Assembly (NCBI GenBank): GCA_012838545.1
Contig: DUPC01000006.1
Location: 71,903-113,024, forward strand
Origin: Acholeplasmataceae bacterium
GTDB taxonomy: Bacteria > Bacillota_I > Bacilli_A > ML615J-28 > CAG-313
Direction of reading: 5' to 3'
Length of the DNA: 41,122 bases
The position numbers and the translations under genes are program-made. The notes beneath the pieces were generated by a model. The model saw only the letters and a list, made by a program, of their open reading frames with translations. It was not told the DNA's origin and made no database searches. Positions 20,860 through 31,008 of the stretch are shown here, piece by piece (position 1 is the first letter of the stretch; each line of letters starts with the position of its first letter).

Positions 20860-21228
20860 CTAATTACGAAAAACAATAATAGCAAAAATAATGCCTGTTA
20901 ACATGATTAAAAATGAGGAAACAATCAATTCTTTAAAAAATCCGACATTGGTTTTTTTTGATTTATACTCTTTATAATCACTGAAAGTAGGGAATTCTTG
21001 TTTAGCGTTTTTATTGAAAAGCAACTTAAGAATATACCCCATTCCGTGAAATACTTGGAAGGCCCCCGTTAAAGCTACTAACGATGGCAAAAAGAAGACA
21101 ATTCCAATCACAAATGTTATATTGGAAACAGATTCTAAAGAAAATTGCATTCCATATATAGATGCATGCGTCAAAAATGCTAAACCAAGCAAGATTATAG
21201 TAAAAATCAAGAAACGAAAAATGCTCAT
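20860..21228 (-). CDS. Small three-helix membrane protein (possibly DUF3899-like)
   Basis: A 122-residue protein with three predicted membrane helices (about 5-25, 36-60 and 98-118) and a charged loop (FPTFSDYKEYKSKK) between the second and third. The size, helix layout and the FxDYxEYK loop recall small Firmicute DUF3899 proteins, which I hold only as a weak suggestion. Its ATG overlaps the TGA of oppF (ATGA), so it is translated together with the transporter ATPase, and the next unknown membrane protein follows by 8 bases. Translational coupling to oppF makes a link to the Opp transporter plausible but unproven. Confidence 0.7.
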   Translation of the reverse strand: MSIFRFLIFTIILLGLAFLTHASIYGMQFSLESVSNITFVIGIVFFLPSLVALTGAFQVFHGMGYILKLLFNKNAKQEFPTFSDYKEYKSKKTNVGFFKELIVSSFLIMLTGIIFAIIVFRN

Positions 21229-22643
21229 TTTAAACTAGCCTTATACCGCTTGAATTCCTCTTCATTACATAATACAAGGTGATCTTCTTCGATTTCTCGG
21301 AAGGTTGGCGCTTCTTTGCTGTAATCGTGTTCAGCCATTGGATCATACCTTACTGTCTTTCCGCGTTTGCTTTCATAGAATGGGTCGGGTTGCGGAATAG
21401 CCGCAAGCAACGATTTGGTATATGGATGCAATGGGTTATTAAAGATTTTTTCTTTATCGCCCATTTCCACGATTTTACCAAAATACATGACCGCAAGTCG
21501 ATCTGTAAAGTATTTAACGACCGACAAGTCATGGGCAATGAACAAAATGGTAATGCCCATTTCTTCTCTTAAGTCATTTAGCAAGTTAATGACTTGCGCA
21601 CGAATCGAAACGTCAAGGTTAGAAATAGGTTCATCCGCAATTATAAACGACGGTTCTACCACCAATGCCCGGGCAATCCCGATTCTTTGGCGTTGTCCGC
21701 CGCTGAATTCATGAGGATATCGGGAAGCATGTTCAGGCAATAGGTTAACCTTGCGCAATGCTTCATTAACTCTTTCTTCGATTTCCCGTTCATTCTTAAC
21801 TCCATTAATTCTTAAACCTTCGGCTACAATTTCTTTAATAACCATTCTTGGGTTTAAGGAAGCAATCGGGTCTTGGAAAATCATTTGCATTTTACGCATT
21901 AAGAACTTATTGCGATAACGAATATTGTATTTCAATTCTTTGACGTCTTGGTTGAATCGAACTTTATTTAGTTTCAACTGCTTTTCTGCATGTTTTAATT
22001 TCTTTTGGAAAGCTTTTAATTGTTGAGTTTTTTCTTTAACCAACAATTTGTCGGCTTTATTGACGTTTTCCAATTCTTTTTTGGCAAATTCTATTTCTTT
22101 TTGAGATTCATCAATATGGCCTTTCGCCTCTTCATCAAGCGTTTTGTATTTTTCCACAAGTTTTTTGTATTCATCAAGGTTTTCAAGATTCTTTAAAGCT
22201 TCCAAGTCTTCTTCCTTGACTTGCTTTTCAAAATGACTGTCGCGTCTTGCGGAACGTAGGACTTCCAAAGAATCAGCAATTTTTTTGTTCCATTCTTCTA
22301 ATTCATAATCCGAAAGCCCATTGGCCTTAGCTTCGTTGAAAGCTCTTACAAGTTCTTTGTGTTGTTTCTTATGTTTCTTGTAATCAGCAATAATTCTAAC
22401 ACCGTTAAAGTATACTTCTCCCCCGGTGGCATCATACAATTTGATAATGGTACGACCCGTGGTTGTTTTTCCACAACCTGATTCGCCTACCAAGGAGAAA
22501 ACTTCGCCTTTATAAATCGTGAAAGAAATGTCATCAACAGCTTTAATAATTGCTTTGTTTCTTCCGCCACCAACTTTAAAGTATTGTTTTAGATTTTCTA
22601 CTCTTAAAATTTCTTCTCTATTATTCTTTGTCAAACTGTTCAC
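21225..22643 (-). CDS. oppF: Oligopeptide ABC transporter ATPase OppF with coiled-coil insertion
   Basis: A 472-residue ATPase that powers peptide import with OppD. Walker A is GESGCGKT (53-60), the Q-loop Gln257 (IFQDP), the signature FSGGQRQR and Walker B IIADEP are intact, and the C-terminal oligopeptide/dipeptide domain ([12 protein letters not shown]) is present. Residues about 85-250, between Walker A and the Q-loop, are a highly charged Lys/Glu-rich helical insertion absent from ordinary OppF (about 310 residues). The start is non-ATG: GTG at 22643, or TTG at 22634, which sits better behind the AGGTGA ribosome site. It overlaps the end of oppD by 23 bases and is translationally coupled to the small membrane protein downstream. 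Confidence 0.92.
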
Positions 22644-24138
22644 CTACACTTCTCGCTTTAAAACGTGCAATTCTTTCGGAGATGATTTTTGGCATCTCAA
22701 CCCTAGGTGCATTCTCATGTAAAAGCCAGGTTGCAGCATAATGTGTGTCTGAGACTTTAAAAAATGGCGGATGTTTTTCAAAATCGATTTTTAAAGCATA
22801 CTCATTTCTTTCTGCAAAAGCATCACCTTTTGGTGGGAATAACATATCAGGCGGAGTACCTGGAATTGATACCAGTTTGACTTTGGTATCCAAATCAGGT
22901 ACGCTTGATAACAATGCCCAAGTATACGGGTGTTTGGAATTGTAGAATATTTCTTCGCTTGTTCCGTATTCCACAATTTTACCTGCATACATAACCGCAA
23001 TCCTATCTGCCATGTTAGCTACAACACCTAAATCATGCGTAATGAAAATAACGGACAAATCGCGTTCTTTTTTAATTTGTTTAATCAAGTCGAGAATTTG
23101 TCCTTGAATAGTAACGTCAAGGGCTGTTGTTGGTTCATCGCAAATGAGGATTTCCGGGTCAGCCATCAAAGCAATCGCGATAACGACTCTTTGTCTCATA
23201 CCGCCGGAAAACTGAAACGGATATTGATGGAATCTTTTTTCAGGATCCGGGATATTAACTTCTCTCATAATTCTGATTGCTTTTTCATATGCTTCTTTTT
23301 TGGTTACTTTGAATTTTCTGCGTAGTTGTTCTTTTGCGTCTTTTATTTCTTGCCTAATTTGACGAATTTCTTCTAGGGCATTTTTATAAGCTTCGGAGTT
23401 TTGGTCCATTTTGTTAAGCCTTGTTCTTTTTGTTGCAAGTTTGTTTTTAAGATCATTAATTGCGGCATTATTTTCTCTGGTTAGTTCTACTTTTTCTTTC
23501 TTGACTTGCGAAACAGCCCGTTTTTTAGCTTCCAAATATTTTTCTTTTAAAGCAGGTAAATCTTTCTTAAAGTTTTCAATTCTTTCCTTTTTAACTGCTT
23601 TTTGTTCTTTGATTTTTTCGGCCTTTTCTTTTTTGGATAAAGACTCGTCAAGTTTTATGTCCATCATCTTATTTTGATAAGCTGCTTTTTCAAGCCTGAT
23701 GGCTTGCAACTTATTCAAATAATCATGATATTCAACATGATATAAATCCCTAAGGCGGTTTTTCATGCGATTTCCGTTAACGAGCATTGCTTCGGTAATT
23801 TGCTTGCCGATTTTCATCGTTGGATTCAAACTGGAAAGCGGGTCTTGGAAGATCATACCAATCTTTTTACCACGAATTTGGTGGAAATTGGCTTCGGATA
23901 GTTTTGTCAAGTCCTGATTGCGATAATTGATTTCGCCATCATCGATGATACCGTTGCGAGCCAAAATTCCCATTATGGCACGATTGGTGACGCTTTTTCC
24001 CGAACCGGATTCGCCCACGATTGCAAATGTTTCGCCCTTATACAAATCAAACGAAACACCTCTGACTGCCCTTACTAAACCGTTGGGGGTCTTAAATGAA
24101 ATTGTCAAATTCTTTACTTCTAATATTTTCTCTTTCAT
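22621..24138 (-). CDS. oppD: Oligopeptide ABC transporter ATPase OppD with coiled-coil insertion
   Basis: A 505-residue ATPase of the peptide importer. Walker A is GESGSGKS (42-49), Q-loop Gln98, signature FSGGMRQR (310-317), Walker B ILICDEP, and the C-terminal HPYTWALLSSVPDL plus the PPDMLFPPKGDAFAERN region of the oligopeptide-binding ATPase C domain; the usual iron-sulfur cysteines of that region are not evident (FAERN replaces FxxRC). Residues about 125-275, after the Q-loop and before the signature, are a Lys/Glu-rich helical insertion, so the protein is roughly 150 residues longer than usual. It starts one base after the stop of oppC and overlaps oppF by 23 bases. The insertion site differs from that in OppF. 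Confidence 0.92.
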   Translation of the reverse strand: MKEKILEVKNLTISFKTPNGLVRAVRGVSFDLYKGETFAIVGESGSGKSVTNRAIMGILARNGIIDDGEINYRNQDLTKLSEANFHQIRGKKIGMIFQDPLSSLNPTMKIGKQITEAMLVNGNRMKNRLRDLYHVEYHDYLNKLQAIRLEKAAYQNKMMDIKLDESLSKKEKAEKIKEQKAVKKERIENFKKDLPALKEKYLEAKKRAVSQVKKEKVELTRENNAAINDLKNKLATKRTRLNKMDQNSEAYKNALEEIRQIRQEIKDAKEQLRRKFKVTKKEAYEKAIRIMREVNIPDPEKRFHQYPFQFSGGMRQRVVIAIALMADPEILICDEPTTALDVTIQGQILDLIKQIKKERDLSVIFITHDLGVVANMADRIAVMYAGKIVEYGTSEEIFYNSKHPYTWALLSSVPDLDTKVKLVSIPGTPPDMLFPPKGDAFAERNEYALKIDFEKHPPFFKVSDTHYAATWLLHENAPRVEMPKIISERIARFKARSVGEQFDKE

Positions 24139-24139
24139 C

Positions 24140-26893
24140 TTAATTACCCCTTAACTGTGGATTAAGCGCATCTCTTAGGGCGTTTCCAAACATATTGAAT
24201 GAGATCATCAAGATGGACACGATAACTGTCGGAGCGATAATCATCCATAGGTTACCGGCAAATATCTGTTGTTGACCTTCATTCAAAATAACCCCGATGG
24301 AAGTTCCGGTTAATTCAACTGGACCTAATTTTAAGGTTTGTCCGCTACCGATACCAAAACCTAGATACGATAGGTTCATTTCAAGGAAAATAACAGATGG
24401 AATACTTAAAATGACCCGTGTAATAATTGTTCCGATGGCATTTGGTAAAATGTGCTTAAAGATAATTCGGCGGTCGCGCGCACCGAGGGTTCTTGCAGCA
24501 AGAACATATTCACGGCCTTTATATCGGTAGAATTGAATTCTGGTAATGGAAGCTGCGCCTATCCATCCATCGTAAATCATAAATATAAACAAGGCTAAGA
24601 ATCCCGGGCCAATAAGGACCGAAATAATACTGATCATCGTTATTTGCGGGAACGAGCCCCAAATGTCTTTGAAGCGTTCCATTAAAATATCGACTTGGCC
24701 GCCGTAGTAGGCACTGATGGCACCCCAAATGATACCAACAAGAATATTAACGATAGACGACATAAAACCTAATAATAGCGAGGTTCTTAAACCCAACCAA
24801 ATCAATGTGAATAAGTCGCGACCAAAGGTATCTGTACCAAACAAGAAGAAAGGCGGATTATCAAAGCCAATAACACGAGCTCCGTCCATCATGACAAAAT
24901 AGTTGAAATATTCTTTGCCGCCGATAACGTAGCCTTCAAATTTAATGACTTCTTTAATTGGATATTCATCGCCAAAAGTCCAAGACTTTTTGGTTTCATC
25001 TTTATAAACAATCGATTCTTCCATGCCTGGGTTTTCGGCTAAAATTTGATCGTATTCGCTTTTACCGATGGTTTTTTCTTTTGGCGAAAAGAGCGCACCG
25101 TAAACATCATAAACAAAACTTGCTTGAGTCCTTTGGGCGTTTTTACGATTATAACGTCCACGTTCGGAACTTATACCAATGAATGGGTTAAATTTGGCAA
25201 GTTCTTCTTGGCCAAAAATAACTTCTTCGCCATTATTAATTGTTATTTGATCAATTCCGATAACACTGCCTTCAGATATGCTTGCTTCATCGGTTACAAC
25301 CCGTAAAACCAAATAACCTTCCATCGATTCGATAGCTGATAAGTCCAGGTTTTGGGTTCCTTCAGCAGTTATTGTGCCCAAAAGCGTTAAAGTATTCCAA
25401 ATTTCTTGATTGGTTTCAACTTGGTTTTCGGAAAGATAAACCCAAAGTGCTCCTTTATTTAACGAACCGACTTCGATTGTCATAGTGCTTGTATTACTCA
25501 AAGCCACTTTGACGTCAGAAGCAATCGCATAACCATCTTGATCAGCAAAAACAATGATTTCATTGTTTCTTCTGCGGAATTTACCTTTTTCTTTTTCGCT
25601 ATCAATAACGAATTCGTCAAACGAGCTTAAAGCTTCATCGTCAAGCACGACGTTGCTGTCGCTGGATAGAACCGATAAACTATTAATCATTAAGAGATTT
25701 TCGGTATCCTCTGTTGACGAAGACGAATAAGCGATAACAATGTAGTAAGCCCCTGGTTGAGCACCTTGGTTAAATGGCGAGAAAGTGGATTCTCCATCCA
25801 TATTGGTAGTACCAACCAAGAATAATTGGTCATCTTCTTCATCCCATGATTCATAATCGCCGGCATTGTTGGACTTAGCCAAATAAACCTTGGCTGTGCC
25901 TTTACCGATTGAATCAATATTCAAAACGATTTGTGCATCGCCGGCTATAAAGATTTCGCTTTCCGAAACCACTGCATAACCATTAAATTCTGGGTCAATG
26001 ACTATCTCGTTTTTGGTTCCGGTAAAATGACCGCTTTCGGTTTGATTGACAACTACAAACGGTTTGAATTGCGATAACGGATAACCTTCGAATTCTTGGG
26101 TTTTCCCATTGGTTGTCAAGGTTAAGCTGTTAAGCGACAAAACATTGTCTGCGGTTGAGGAGATTCGGTTTACTTCGTACTTAACAATCAAATAACCTTT
26201 TATTCCCGGTGTGATTTTGGCAGATACGGTTGAAACACCCGCTTTGTTAATACTGCCTATATACACCAAATCATTCCAGGATTGGTAATTAGTGCCGGTC
26301 AAGTATTCGGAAATATATAGTTTAACGACACCGTCACCGATACTGTTAATGTCAAGAGTAACATCAGTATCTTCCTTAAATTCAATCTCTTCCGGAGAAC
26401 GGACGGAATAAGCTGTACGGCCGCGGTTTACAATCAGTTCATTGGTACCGCCGCGGTATTGTGAACTTCTAACCGAACCGATAACCACGTTATTTGTTAG
26501 GGTTGAGAAATCGATAAATTTAGGGTCGAAGTTAGACGGATAACCTAAACCGGTTTCTGGATCAATTGTATTGTAATCAATCGGTTGATTTTTATAGTAT
26601 TTTTTTCCATCAAAAATGCCTAATTTTTCCAATAGAGGAACTTTTGGCGGCAATGTATCAAGGGCGCTGTTGGTTTGTTTGTATAAACGATCGGGCGTAA
26701 AGATTGGAACGAAAATCGCTAATAAAATCATGATGGATAGAATGATTGTTGCAATAACATTATATCTGTTGCGCGAAAATCTCACCATCGCATCTTGAAA
26801 ATAAGTCAATTGCTTGGTTTTTAGCGGCTTATCGATAAATCGTTCTCTATCGTTTACAAGCTCAAAATATTCTTTTGGATATTTATTTTCCAT
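24140..26893 (-). CDS. oppC: Oligopeptide ABC transporter permease OppC with three-module extracytoplasmic insertion
   Basis: A 917-residue permease, three times the usual length. Residues 1-65 give the cytoplasmic start and first membrane helix (about 46-65); residues about 66-680 are extracytoplasmic; then FGTDTFGRDLFT (685-696), which normally follows the first helix closely, opens the standard five-helix OppC core with its EAA loop (YVLAARTLGARDRRIIFKHI, about 796-815). The insertion holds three tandem beta-rich modules of about 145 residues (133-280, 281-430, 431-574), each with an NEIIV-type strand, a GYAxxS turn, an SIGxGxxxVYLxE core and a closing xxINSLxx strand. It starts at 26893, sharing a base with the oppB stop (TAATG). 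The insertion may bind peptide, OppA or glycan at the surface; nothing in it is catalytic that I can see. Confidence 0.9.
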   Translation of the reverse strand: MENKYPKEYFELVNDRERFIDKPLKTKQLTYFQDAMVRFSRNRYNVIATIILSIMILLAIFVPIFTPDRLYKQTNSALDTLPPKVPLLEKLGIFDGKKYYKNQPIDYNTIDPETGLGYPSNFDPKFIDFSTLTNNVVIGSVRSSQYRGGTNELIVNRGRTAYSVRSPEEIEFKEDTDVTLDINSIGDGVVKLYISEYLTGTNYQSWNDLVYIGSINKAGVSTVSAKITPGIKGYLIVKYEVNRISSTADNVLSLNSLTLTTNGKTQEFEGYPLSQFKPFVVVNQTESGHFTGTKNEIVIDPEFNGYAVVSESEIFIAGDAQIVLNIDSIGKGTAKVYLAKSNNAGDYESWDEEDDQLFLVGTTNMDGESTFSPFNQGAQPGAYYIVIAYSSSSTEDTENLLMINSLSVLSSDSNVVLDDEALSSFDEFVIDSEKEKGKFRRRNNEIIVFADQDGYAIASDVKVALSNTSTMTIEVGSLNKGALWVYLSENQVETNQEIWNTLTLLGTITAEGTQNLDLSAIESMEGYLVLRVVTDEASISEGSVIGIDQITINNGEEVIFGQEELAKFNPFIGISSERGRYNRKNAQRTQASFVYDVYGALFSPKEKTIGKSEYDQILAENPGMEESIVYKDETKKSWTFGDEYPIKEVIKFEGYVIGGKEYFNYFVMMDGARVIGFDNPPFFLFGTDTFGRDLFTLIWLGLRTSLLLGFMSSIVNILVGIIWGAISAYYGGQVDILMERFKDIWGSFPQITMISIISVLIGPGFLALFIFMIYDGWIGAASITRIQFYRYKGREYVLAARTLGARDRRIIFKHILPNAIGTIITRVILSIPSVIFLEMNLSYLGFGIGSGQTLKLGPVELTGTSIGVILNEGQQQIFAGNLWMIIAPTVIVSILMISFNMFGNALRDALNPQLRGN
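25172..26497 (-). repeat. Three tandem modules coded within oppC
   Basis: Module 1 at 26497-26054, module 2 at 26053-25604 and module 3 at 25603-25172. They share the order of landmarks: NELIV / NEIVI / NEIIV, then AYSVRS / GYAVVS / GYAIAS, then DINSIGDGVVKLYIS / NIDSIGKGTAKVYLA / EVGSLNKGALWVYLS, then LVYIGSINKAG / LFLVGTTNMDG / LTLLGTITAEG. Conservation is at protein level only. Confidence 0.85.
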
Positions 26894-27990
26894 TATTTTT
26901 TCGCCCCCATCCTAATTTGCGGATCGACAAGTCCGTAAGAAAGGTCGACGATTAATACGGTAAAGAGCCCGATAATGCCATAAAAAGCATTGGAAGCCAT
27001 TAACACATTATAATCGTAGTTGTTTTGTTGCAGCGCTCTTAAGGTAATTGTTCCTACTCCCGGAATACCATATACTCTTTCCATAATAAAGGAACCAGAT
27101 AACAACCCCGCAAATGATCCAATAATAATTGGAACCATCGGAACCAAGGAATTTCTGATAGCATGTCTTATAACAGATTGACCGTGGGATAACCCTTTTG
27201 TCTTTGCCAACATAACGAAATCGCTAGTTAGAACTTCGGATAATTCGGCTCTTAATAGTCTAGTTAAACTGGCTATCGATGGAAGCGACATTGCAATAAT
27301 AGGGACAATAAATCCCTTGGCAATCTGCCAGTTGCTTTCAATTCCTATTAATGGGAACAGTGACGGTAGCCAATTAAGTTTGTACGACAAAATGATGATT
27401 AACGTTAACAATAAAACTAGACTTGGGATTGACAAGAAAACCATGATAAATATTTGCATGAGATTGTCAATCAATTTATCTTTCTTAAGTGCAGCGATAA
27501 TCCCAAAAGCAAAACCAAACGGAAGATAAAAAATCAACCCTGCCAGATTAAGAATCAAGGTTAAAGGCATTCGTTGGGAAATGACTGAGAAGGCTGGTCT
27601 GTTAATGGCGATTTTGGTTGATGTACCCCAATCCCATTTTGTTATGACATTATATAACCATCTGAAATATTGAACAGGTATTGGAACGCGGTAAAACACT
27701 TTATAAGTCGTGCTGGTACTTCCGATTGGATTAACAATAAAGACGGTTTTATTATAATCGGAACGTTTTTTAACTTCTTCCAAATAAGCCATATCATCAG
27801 GATCGTTTTTATCCAAATAATCGGAAGTATAATAACCGTCTTCAACTTGTTTTTCTAGCCAGATGTCTTTGTCTTCATTTTTTCCAGGAGGAAATTCTGG
27901 AGCTAATTTCAGTAACACATAAGTAATAGTCAGTGTTGTGAAAAGTATTATAAAAATCCAGATTACTCTCTGTATAACATACTTTTTCAT
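26893..27990 (-). CDS. oppB: Oligopeptide ABC transporter permease OppB
   Basis: A 365-residue permease and partner of OppC. The N-terminus KKYVIQRVIWIFIILFTTLTITYVLLKL is the typical OppB first helix, and the EAA region (LTSDFVMLAKTKGLSHGQSVIRHAIRN) and the final YGLVDPQIRMG are classic. An enlarged periplasm-side segment of about 90 residues (30-120) after the first helix includes several charged stretches and makes the protein about 50 residues longer than the enterobacterial form. It is preceded by two hairpins that separate it from oppA, and its stop shares a base with the start codon of oppC. Confidence 0.93.
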   Translation of the reverse strand: MKKYVIQRVIWIFIILFTTLTITYVLLKLAPEFPPGKNEDKDIWLEKQVEDGYYTSDYLDKNDPDDMAYLEEVKKRSDYNKTVFIVNPIGSTSTTYKVFYRVPIPVQYFRWLYNVITKWDWGTSTKIAINRPAFSVISQRMPLTLILNLAGLIFYLPFGFAFGIIAALKKDKLIDNLMQIFIMVFLSIPSLVLLLTLIIILSYKLNWLPSLFPLIGIESNWQIAKGFIVPIIAMSLPSIASLTRLLRAELSEVLTSDFVMLAKTKGLSHGQSVIRHAIRNSLVPMVPIIIGSFAGLLSGSFIMERVYGIPGVGTITLRALQQNNYDYNVLMASNAFYGIIGLFTVLIVDLSYGLVDPQIRMGAKK

Positions 27991-28034
27991 TTATATTCAC
28001 CCAATCTTTTCTAAAAATGTTTTAACATAGAGAA

Positions 28035-28094
28035 TAGGGGGTGCTAGGTTCAAGCGACCCCCTAATATTTTACTTATTGGTTAGCAAGTAAAAT
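28035..28094 (-). promoter_or_regulatory. Two hairpins between oppA and oppB
   Basis: Directly after the oppA stop, ATTTTACTT (28067-28075) pairs with AAGTAAAAT (28086-28094); then TAGGGGGT (28035-28042) pairs with ACCCCCTA (28057-28064), with an inner GCT/AGC extension. Neither is followed by a good T-run on the - strand, so they look more like a transcript-stabilising or attenuating structure that leaves oppA more abundant than oppBCDF than a full terminator. Confidence 0.7.
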
Positions 28095-28101
28095 TTAGAA
28101 A

Positions 28102-30942
28102 TTATAGCCATTCAACGAATAAGTAGTAATCTCCGATTTTCTTCAAGACTGCAGCATCAGAATAAGTAGCACCAGAATAAGTGTAAGTAGTTGCATAAAC
28201 TCTTAATTCACTTAGTGGGATTTCAAACTCATCTGCCACTTCTTGTAATGTTTCCCAACCGAAGTTTGCAGCGATATATTCGTTAGCAGCTAATTTTTCA
28301 TCTGTATCTAGTAATTCGATTTCTGCTGACAATGCTACTCCGGCTAATTTTGTGAATTCCGCATCGATTAATGCTTTAGGGTCAGTAGCCAAATTGAGTG
28401 TATTATATAACATCCAGTTTTTGCCAACTTTACCAATAACGTAAAGAACATTCTTACCGCCTTGAGTAACTGCTACTTTAGCATCAACAGCAGAATAATC
28501 TTTTTCTTCCATGATTTCAGCAAATGTCTTGCCTAAAAGAGTTTCAGCTAGACTTTGGTCACCTGGAAGGATTTCAGTAGCTGGATCGTTATCCATATCT
28601 TGGTATGCCCTAATTAGGTCATCTGGATTACTCCAGTCTTTTTGTTCGCGGCCTTCCTTAACGTATACTTTTCTTGATAAGGATTCAACGATTGCATTGA
28701 AGCTCCAATATTCTTTAACTGCTTCGCCATTTAAGTTAGTGTATTCAACTTTAATGTTAGCTGTGGAAGTATCAATACCCCAGTTGAGAGTAAAGCCGCC
28801 ACGGTTGTCATCGCAGAATACATCTAGGAATCCTGGCGCATCTAGCAATGAGCCTTGGATACCGCCGATTACAAAGTCAGCTTTGGCAGGCATTGCATAG
28901 TCGTAGTAGTTGTTAGGGAATGGTACATCTAGGTAGTCGAATTTAACTTTTACATAGTTAACATCATCCACTAATAGAGCTTCATATTGTTCAATTAGGT
29001 TTTGAACATATGCTTGTAAAGCTGTGCTACCGGAAGATGCATAAATCAAGCTGAATTCAATTTCTGTGTAGTTAGATGAAGTTCCTCTTTGGTAATGTCC
29101 GTCAGCAATTGCTTTTGCGACTGCGTCTTTGAACAAGTCTTTTGCAGCATCAGGAACAAAACCGTGAGATGAACCAGCAAAACGATCAAATGTATCTTGA
29201 CCCTCAGGTGTACCGCGTACCGACAATCCGGATTCAGCATCTAAGAAATAAGTAGCTGCAAAGTATGTGTGTTGAGGAGCATAAACTTTCGCAACATTTT
29301 CCGCTGCATGTTTTCTGTCCAAACCATAATACAATGCTTGTCTCATTTCTGTGTACATTAAGATTGGTTCTGGTAGGTATTCGTCGTCAATACCAATTGA
29401 AGGATTATTTGCCTTGAATTCATCGCGTTTTGCAGGTGTTCCGAAGGCATTGATGTTCAATCTTGTTGTGGAAGCGCTAGGGGAAACCTTAACGCGTTCG
29501 TCACTTAAGAATTCATCAACTCTTGATGTTGGAATGCTTGCGCTTTCCAAACGTCCTGCTTCAAATTCTGCGAAGATATTGTCAGAACCTTCAACAAAAC
29601 GGAATTGGTAACCTGTGTAATGGTAATTTTCTTTATCAGGGTGTAAATCGTTCTTCTTATAAAGAACTAATTGTCCGCGTGTGTATGTATCTAAGAAATA
29701 GATACCACTTGCAGCAACGGTTGTTGGTGATGTACCGTAACTATCAGGATCTGCTTCGTAAATGTCTTGGTGAAGAGCTGGAAGGATTGCGCCAGCAAAA
29801 CCATATTTGAAGTTGAATGCATCGGTTGGTTCATCGTATTCAATCAATAAGGTGTTGCCATCAATAACTTTTAATCCAACTTTTGCCCAGTTTTCTTCAG
29901 TTGGGGATTCCATAAAGTCTTTAACGCCTTTAACGCCTTTGCTTACGAAGTCTCCGCCACCAGTTCTAGCTCTGAACCATTTTTCTGTCAAAGCTGTTTT
30001 CCAAGTCCATAGCCAGTCATTAGCATCTAGTTTTTCATGTCCCTCTGAGAATGAGCTTGTATCAGTGTCTGGATGGTATTTCCATTGTAAGTCATCGCGA
30101 ATAGGAATTTGCCAAACAGAAGCAACTGTCTTACCATTGATGACTTGTGCGTCTACAGGAATAGGTTCTTCTTTTGCTAGAGAAGGAACAATCTTATAAC
30201 CTGTTTTTGTTTCGTCAAAGACGAAATCATATAGCGCACCAGTAAACATATCAACGAAATCAGAGGTTGCTGCATCATCAGAAATCCAAGGGTTGAAGCC
30301 TTGAGGATCGTTTGAGAATACATTTCTCCAAGTATATTCGCCTGGATTACCATAAGTATCACCATACATAATAACGTGCGAGTCGTCTTCGGTTAATTCT
30401 GAGAAGGCAATACCAAAGCCAAGAACACCATTATAATCTTCTGAGAACAATGAAACACGGTCAGAGAAAATAACCCGGCTTGCACTATTGTATAGTGGGA
30501 TACCTGCATAAACATTTTCAATCAAATAGTTTTCGGCAGCTGCAAACAATTTTGCTTTTTCGCTTGCAGATAGGTAACTATAGTTTACACCTTCCAAATA
30601 ATTTGCATATCTGAAGCCAGATGTATCTTCAGGTGTAACTGTAACCCTACGTAAAACCTTAGTTTCCCGGTCTTCGGAGTCTTTTACCGAATATTCAAGT
30701 TCATAAACGGCTGGAACTTCAGTATCGACTTCACCGGAAATTTGGATTTGAGCTGTTAAATCATTACCTTCGCTATCTTTAGCTGTTACGCCAGCTTTTG
30801 GATCAAAGGTTGAAAAACGTGGAACGCTTGTGTCATCTGCACCAAGGATTTTTGGCCTACCAGCAGTGTTTTTACAACCAACAAGTATAACAGCCAAAAC
30901 CAAGAGTGTTATAACACTCAAAATTCTTTTTGTTGATTTCAT
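28102..30942 (-). CDS. oppA: Oligopeptide-binding lipoprotein OppA with N-terminal Ig-like domain
   Basis: About 946 residues. The start is placed at the ATG 30942-30940 behind AAGGAGAG; an earlier in-frame ATG (31008) would overlap the -35 box. The signal peptide ends in the lipobox VGC (MKSTKRILSVITLLVLAVILVGC), so the protein is lipid-anchored on the outer face. Residues about 30-110 look like the Cry22/DUF5011 Ig-like domain (GVTAKDSEGNDLT, then PAVYELEYSVKDSE). The remainder is a family 5 extracellular solute-binding domain that captures peptides and delivers them to OppBC. First gene of the operon, under a near-consensus promoter with an upstream cre site. It is larger than enterobacterial OppA (about 540), like other mollicute-type OppA proteins. 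Confidence 0.88.
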   Translation of the reverse strand: MKSTKRILSVITLLVLAVILVGCKNTAGRPKILGADDTSVPRFSTFDPKAGVTAKDSEGNDLTAQIQISGEVDTEVPAVYELEYSVKDSEDRETKVLRRVTVTPEDTSGFRYANYLEGVNYSYLSASEKAKLFAAAENYLIENVYAGIPLYNSASRVIFSDRVSLFSEDYNGVLGFGIAFSELTEDDSHVIMYGDTYGNPGEYTWRNVFSNDPQGFNPWISDDAATSDFVDMFTGALYDFVFDETKTGYKIVPSLAKEEPIPVDAQVINGKTVASVWQIPIRDDLQWKYHPDTDTSSFSEGHEKLDANDWLWTWKTALTEKWFRARTGGGDFVSKGVKGVKDFMESPTEENWAKVGLKVIDGNTLLIEYDEPTDAFNFKYGFAGAILPALHQDIYEADPDSYGTSPTTVAASGIYFLDTYTRGQLVLYKKNDLHPDKENYHYTGYQFRFVEGSDNIFAEFEAGRLESASIPTSRVDEFLSDERVKVSPSASTTRLNINAFGTPAKRDEFKANNPSIGIDDEYLPEPILMYTEMRQALYYGLDRKHAAENVAKVYAPQHTYFAATYFLDAESGLSVRGTPEGQDTFDRFAGSSHGFVPDAAKDLFKDAVAKAIADGHYQRGTSSNYTEIEFSLIYASSGSTALQAYVQNLIEQYEALLVDDVNYVKVKFDYLDVPFPNNYYDYAMPAKADFVIGGIQGSLLDAPGFLDVFCDDNRGGFTLNWGIDTSTANIKVEYTNLNGEAVKEYWSFNAIVESLSRKVYVKEGREQKDWSNPDDLIRAYQDMDNDPATEILPGDQSLAETLLGKTFAEIMEEKDYSAVDAKVAVTQGGKNVLYVIGKVGKNWMLYNTLNLATDPKALIDAEFTKLAGVALSAEIELLDTDEKLAANEYIAANFGWETLQEVADEFEIPLSELRVYATTYTYSGATYSDAAVLKKIGDYYLFVEWL

Positions 30943-30979
30943 TAAACTATCTCTCCTTTTTCCTAAATATAGTGCTTTA

Positions 30980-31008
30980 ATTATACCACACAAAAAAATA
31001 CTAGTCAA
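30980..31008 (-). promoter_or_regulatory. Promoter of the opp operon
   Basis: On the - strand TTGACT (-35, 31003-31008), exactly 17 bases, TATAAT (-10, 30980-30985); near-perfect sigma-A type. The A of the oppA start codon is 38 bases past the -10. Confidence 0.93.

Follow-up and report, generated by a model that had tools for sequence, protein, structure and literature searches.

The window, i.e. the whole stretch of 41,122 nucleotides that was analysed, harbours a tight operon on the minus strand with the gene order OppA-B-C-D-F. It encodes the solute-binding lipoprotein OppA (28102–30945; 946 aa when counted from MKSTKR, the likely start; SBP_bac_5, E 3.6e-25; lipobox-like motif ILVGC); the permeases OppB (26893–27990; 365 aa; BPD_transp_1) and OppC (24140–26893; 917 aa); and the ATPases OppD (22621–24138; 505 aa) and OppF (21225–22643; 472 aa), both with ABC_tran and oligo_HPY domains. 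The set characteristic of an OppC-type importer, namely a family 5 binding protein, OppB and two oligo_HPY ATPases, is present, and by its gene content the operon appears to be an intact-looking oligopeptide importer, OppABCDF. In both OppD and OppF, the ABC ATPase domain is interrupted by long insertions between its parts; the one in OppD is highly charged and helical-looking. Also, near the start of the window, a single plus-strand frame (15–1769), whose 5' end lies beyond the window, joins the C-terminal part of an SBP_bac_1/8 sugar-type binding protein to a BPD_transp_1 permease; genes for a second permease and an alpha-amylase come next. This frame is a possible binding-protein/permease fusion.

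The OppC gene is an intact open reading frame with OppC_N at residues 30–83 and BPD_transp_1 at residues 720–915. Both domains pass the Pfam cut-offs (41.1 against 23.9 bits and 70.9 against 26.4 bits, respectively); the score with the NCBIfam Opp3C equivalog NF045475 (262.3 bits) is below the curated cut-off of 450 bits. The TM1–TM2 loops of peptide-importer permeases are extracytoplasmic. According to hydropathy, TM1 of the window OppC, located inside OppC_N, ends at residue 70 (residues 42–70; 26684–26770) and the next hydrophobic segment starts at residue 697, with an external loop of approximately 615 residues between TM1 and TM2. The loop contains 90 D/E and 51 K/R residues and no cysteine. 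It is composed of a pre-module part, which is alignable with single-module relatives (residues 71–133; 26495–26683); three modules in tandem (146, 148, and 143 residues); and a post-module base, which is more conserved than the modules (residues 571–684; 24842–25183). Module 1 (residues 134–279; 26057–26494) is the copy closest to the single module of the relatives (up to 38% identity), module 2 (residues 280–427; 25613–26056) is missing from them, and module 3 (residues 428–570; 25184–25612) completes the array. The TM2–TM6 permease core, matching BPD_transp_1, follows at residues 685–917 (24143–24841). A large external segment after the first membrane helix, as recognized in the initial annotation (25172–26497, corresponding to residues 133–574), is therefore a genuine feature of this permease.

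The modules share the landmarks NE-I/L-IV, Y-A/S-V/I, and VYL-E. Smith–Waterman scores were 171 for modules 1 and 2 (z 24), 170 for modules 1 and 3 (z 23), and 127 for modules 2 and 3 (z 16), as compared with means near 33 and maxima of 62–74 in 2000 shuffles of each pair. The three modules are true duplicates of one unit; modules 2 and 3 share about 24–30% identity with module 1. Pairwise alignments 16–24 standard deviations above the shuffles and the predicted all-beta model described below agree with the earlier proposal that one beta-sandwich-like unit had been duplicated.

Relatives, copy number and origin of the operon

A close OppC (E ≤ 1e-80) was found in 43 of the 395 scanned genomes of the class; within the window's own family and order, these genomes contained no other one than that of the window itself. 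The nearest OppCs were those of UBA6235, Tobar13m-G41, OKU6, and Tenericutes bacterium MO-XQ (56–61% identity in the best segment of the genome scan). They share the operon order and the flanking base with the window OppC but possess one module each instead of three. More generally, the closest OppCs originate mostly from wall-less Acholeplasmataceae-type bacteria and display a long loop with exactly one module. Two stretches of the MO-XQ chromosome (CP017948.1), each about 22 kb, have identical ORF lists; either the region was duplicated recently or the assembly is at fault. In the plasmid collection, all matches to OppC were below 60% identity and none spanned 80% of the protein.

With an iterated profile, one module was counted in 37 sampled OppCs (two of which are the same sequence), two modules in L053 and L055, and three in L067, L070, and the window. 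In the permease-core tree, the window OppC belongs to a fully supported group of eleven, the other members of which carry one module. The three-copy OppCs require three changes on this tree, while the two-module OppCs form one group. The window's three modules cluster together in the module tree (SH-aLRT 84), with modules 2 and 3 as sisters (SH-aLRT 91). Given this grouping and the single-module neighbours, the trees indicate that the clade ancestrally had one module and that the tripling arose in the window's own lineage. At least two further lineages separately arrived at two or three copies. Almost all clade members sampled have kept at least one recognizable or degenerate module.

The solved OppC/DppC chains (PF12911 and PF00528; 8z21_B, 8z1v_B, 8wd9_C, and 8j5q_C) have the TM1 domain, the TM2–6 core, and the operon partners in common with the window OppC. 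They comprise only 287–302 aa, and their matched core begins at about residue 63–82, as compared with residue 683, after the long loop, in the window. The expectation of a short loop at this position thus holds for canonical OppC/DppC but fails in the window's clade, whose members normally have one module within a loop of about 330 residues. A large insertion as such is not exceptional among these relatives. It is also neither confined to one strain nor accompanied by disrupting mutations, since the module occurs in many OppCs and the window frame is intact.

A profile search for the module in other proteins gave confident hits (E < 1e-11) in OppC frames only. Weak hits (E 5e-4 to 7e-6) were obtained with domains in other large proteins of the class, either secreted or at the surface. 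Faint resemblance to the module was seen in three large secreted-looking proteins (L088:111-2906, L092:90-2921, and L089:2586-8000) with no convincing Pfam domain. For the loops of four OppCs from the same order (L004, L005, L006, and L008), a suspected homology to the module found weak support and is not claimed (HMM E 0.02–1.3; hhalign probability 0.7%; one relative, L010, with E 8e-4).

The window contig is well binned, as judged from its DnaB, which is closest to those of its own family (52–60% identity, at most 47% outside). The window OppC, in contrast, does not resemble those of its own family; in the core tree, it groups with other families. PBP transpeptidases are absent from most sampled module-bearing hosts, which are wall-less by this test, except for one family (f8). 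The window genome encodes two PBPs, FtsW/RodA, and several Mur ligases. The simplest reading of these sequence data is that the walled host obtained the Opp operon (21225–31008, minus strand) by horizontal transfer, from lineages most of which lack a wall; alternatively, it may be an ancient paralogue lost elsewhere. In the present host, the OppC ectodomain probably sits at the membrane beneath the wall.

The window genome contains a second OppC (L032; G000:C40:13000-23793; ORF of 1142 aa from position 2863, plus strand). It also has a large domain in the TM1–TM2 loop, but this is an RCC1 beta-propeller, split by a coiled-coil-like stretch, instead of beta-sandwich modules. RCC1 repeats were identified in paralogues of this type by Pfam for the three that were scanned, L032, L034, and L035 (RCC1_2, E 1e-12 to 1e-31), or by sequence inspection (L093–L097). 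Insertions into the outer loop of OppC recur in this class. With the terms tried, our literature search retrieved no paper on extracellular domains of OppC or on ABC permeases with RCC1.

Fold and divergence of the module

Structure prediction of module 1 from a seven-sequence alignment yielded an all-beta sandwich of ten strands (pLDDT 78.7; pTM 0.76; the first 15 residues were not modelled confidently). The prediction supports folding of a single module as a domain, which speaks against the possibility, considered at the outset, that the modules fail to fold. The AlphaFold model of full-length OppC (917 aa), built with five sequences, was poor (pLDDT 50.8; pTM 0.28) and was left out of the fold search; the modules were its most confident part and contained the only stretches at 70–85.

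A Foldseek search of the module 1 model against PDB returned no match at E ≤ 0.001. The weak neighbours were jelly-roll-like domains, including SEC14-like proteins, GOLD, CBM86, sialidases, and meprin, with query TM-scores up to 0.54. A Pfam scan of 48 modules gave only stray one-member hits and no family spanning the module, and the best hit of a profile search among PDB sequences had E 0.88. These 48 modules display no invariant column; a single column (G86) is 90% conserved, and neither a conserved aromatic nor a metal site was detected. Assignment of the module to lectins or CBMs was rejected, as no significant match was obtained in any of these searches.

Within the window's clade, mean identity dropped from 86% in TM2–6 to 52% in the post-module base and 37% in the module. 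Between the window and the single-module relatives, the corresponding values were 63% from the N-terminus through the pre-module part, 32% for module 1, 48% for the base, and 83% for TM2–6. The dN/dS ratios of the modules (about 0.13–0.46 in pairs with measurable dS) are higher than those of the core (about 0.02–0.05). By these sequence measures, the module is constrained but fast: it is under purifying selection, yet is the fastest-evolving part of OppC.

The OppA partner

The window OppA possesses an N-terminal Ig-like domain (PF16403; 30637–30852, minus strand; E 3.3e-15) between the lipobox and the SBP core. We surveyed the OppA genes of the window (28102–31008) and of loci L036–L039, L098–L117, and L138–L147; only intact genes were counted, and operons cut by contig ends were left unscored. 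Beside module-bearing OppCs, the Ig-like domain was clear in 23 OppAs, weak in one (L141), and replaced in one (L110). It was found in none of the 15 OppAs beside module-less OppCs and in neither of the two beside OppCs with a degenerate module (L138 and L139). On the tree, the co-occurrence is clumped; common descent may account for it. The OppA-like frame of L110 (G225:C136; 9799–14715, minus strand) encodes a protein of about 1610 aa, in which an N-terminal region of 900 residues looks like repeated surface domains.

Beyond the permease core, distances of the module and the OppA Ig-like domain were not correlated when all species were taken together (r 0.07, p 0.26); no overall co-evolution of the two was found. 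Module and OppA-core distances correlated weakly (partial r 0.34, permutation p 0.002), but not significantly outside the window's clade. The size of OppA did not change with the tripling of the module (946 aa versus 938–1032 aa).

Possible role of the ectodomain

In the Dpp system of E. coli, the binding protein DppA caps DppB/DppC, and a TM1–TM2 scoop of DppB enters the DppA cleft (PMC12136057). The P2 region of MalF contacts the binding protein MalE directly (PMC3150292). Since the OppC ectodomain is located at the same face as these contacts, it would be best explained by docking or retention of OppA. We envisage a modular ectodomain in which the moderately conserved base bears tandem jelly-roll-like beta-sandwich modules. 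Located beside the mouth of the OppB–OppC channel, it would dock or hold the lipid-anchored OppA and thereby keep it near the gate, akin to the contact between MalF P2 and MalE; extra module copies would widen or lengthen the contact surface. MalF P2 serves as an analogy only. Both it and, by prediction, the OppC modules are folded domains in an external permease loop. However, MalF P2 belongs to the maltose-type permease family, occupies another position, and is present in a single copy, whereas the domain studied here lies between TM1 and TM2 of an OppC. Contact of the modules with OppA, and any effect of it on transport, we infer. We assign this reading a probability of roughly 0.4.

Among the roles suggested initially, i.e. 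capturing peptide, holding OppA, or attaching the cell to a substrate, holding OppA is the best supported, though indirectly, by the position in a region that contacts binding proteins, by the MalF P2 precedent, and by the Ig-like domain of the partner OppA. The presence of one module in 37 OppCs, the restriction of confident hits to OppC, the dN/dS values, and the weak correlation with the OppA core are also in favour of docking. Fast evolution of the module and its variable copy number would be unexpected of a precise docking surface. The constant OppA size, the lack of an overall correlation with the Ig-like domain, the loss of the OppA-core signal outside the window's clade, and the clumped co-occurrence also count against it.

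The strongest rival, which we regard as rather unlikely, is a loosely constrained surface elaboration: the loop would tolerate insertion and duplication, the modules would shield or space the transporter with no specific partner, and extra copies would be near-neutral. It accommodates the rapid divergence of the modules, the separate changes of copy number in several lineages, and the unrelated RCC1 propellers in the same loop of other OppCs, but is at odds with purifying selection and with retention of a module, even if degenerate, in nearly all clade members sampled. A ligand-binding role, with a lectin/CBM-like or peptide-capturing domain serving to concentrate substrate or to attach the cell to a polymer, appears less probable still. 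The jelly-roll-type fold, the CBM86 and sialidase lectin domains among the weak Foldseek neighbours, and the weak profile hits to domains of large secreted or surface proteins would fit ligand binding; the absence of a significant fold match and of conserved aromatic or metal sites argues against it. Attachment to a substrate is further weakened by the wall that probably covers the ectodomain in this host. Finally, a mis-assembled repeat or foreign contig, conceivable for a 65-contig draft genome with an OppC that differs from those of its family, can be dismissed because the modules are too diverged; the frame is also intact, the DnaB on the same contig matches its own family, and two or three modules occur independently in other genomes.

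The proposal of a real built-in surface domain was correct, while that of a new mechanism was not sustained. The usual picture of a peptide importer is that of a nearly invariant permease served by a variable binding protein. The window permease itself bears a fast-evolving, repeatedly duplicated outer domain, which has no library family and co-occurs with an extra OppA domain. Speculatively, the OppC outer loop might be a modular adaptor slot, into which lineages plug different domains (beta-sandwich modules or RCC1 propellers) matched by OppA domains, so that the permease, too, would shape peptide capture or retention. If docking of OppA holds and the domain does contact it, this would be a further case, outside MalF's transporter family, of a permease domain managing the binding protein, and the natural one-, two-, and three-module versions would allow the contribution of each copy to be tested directly.
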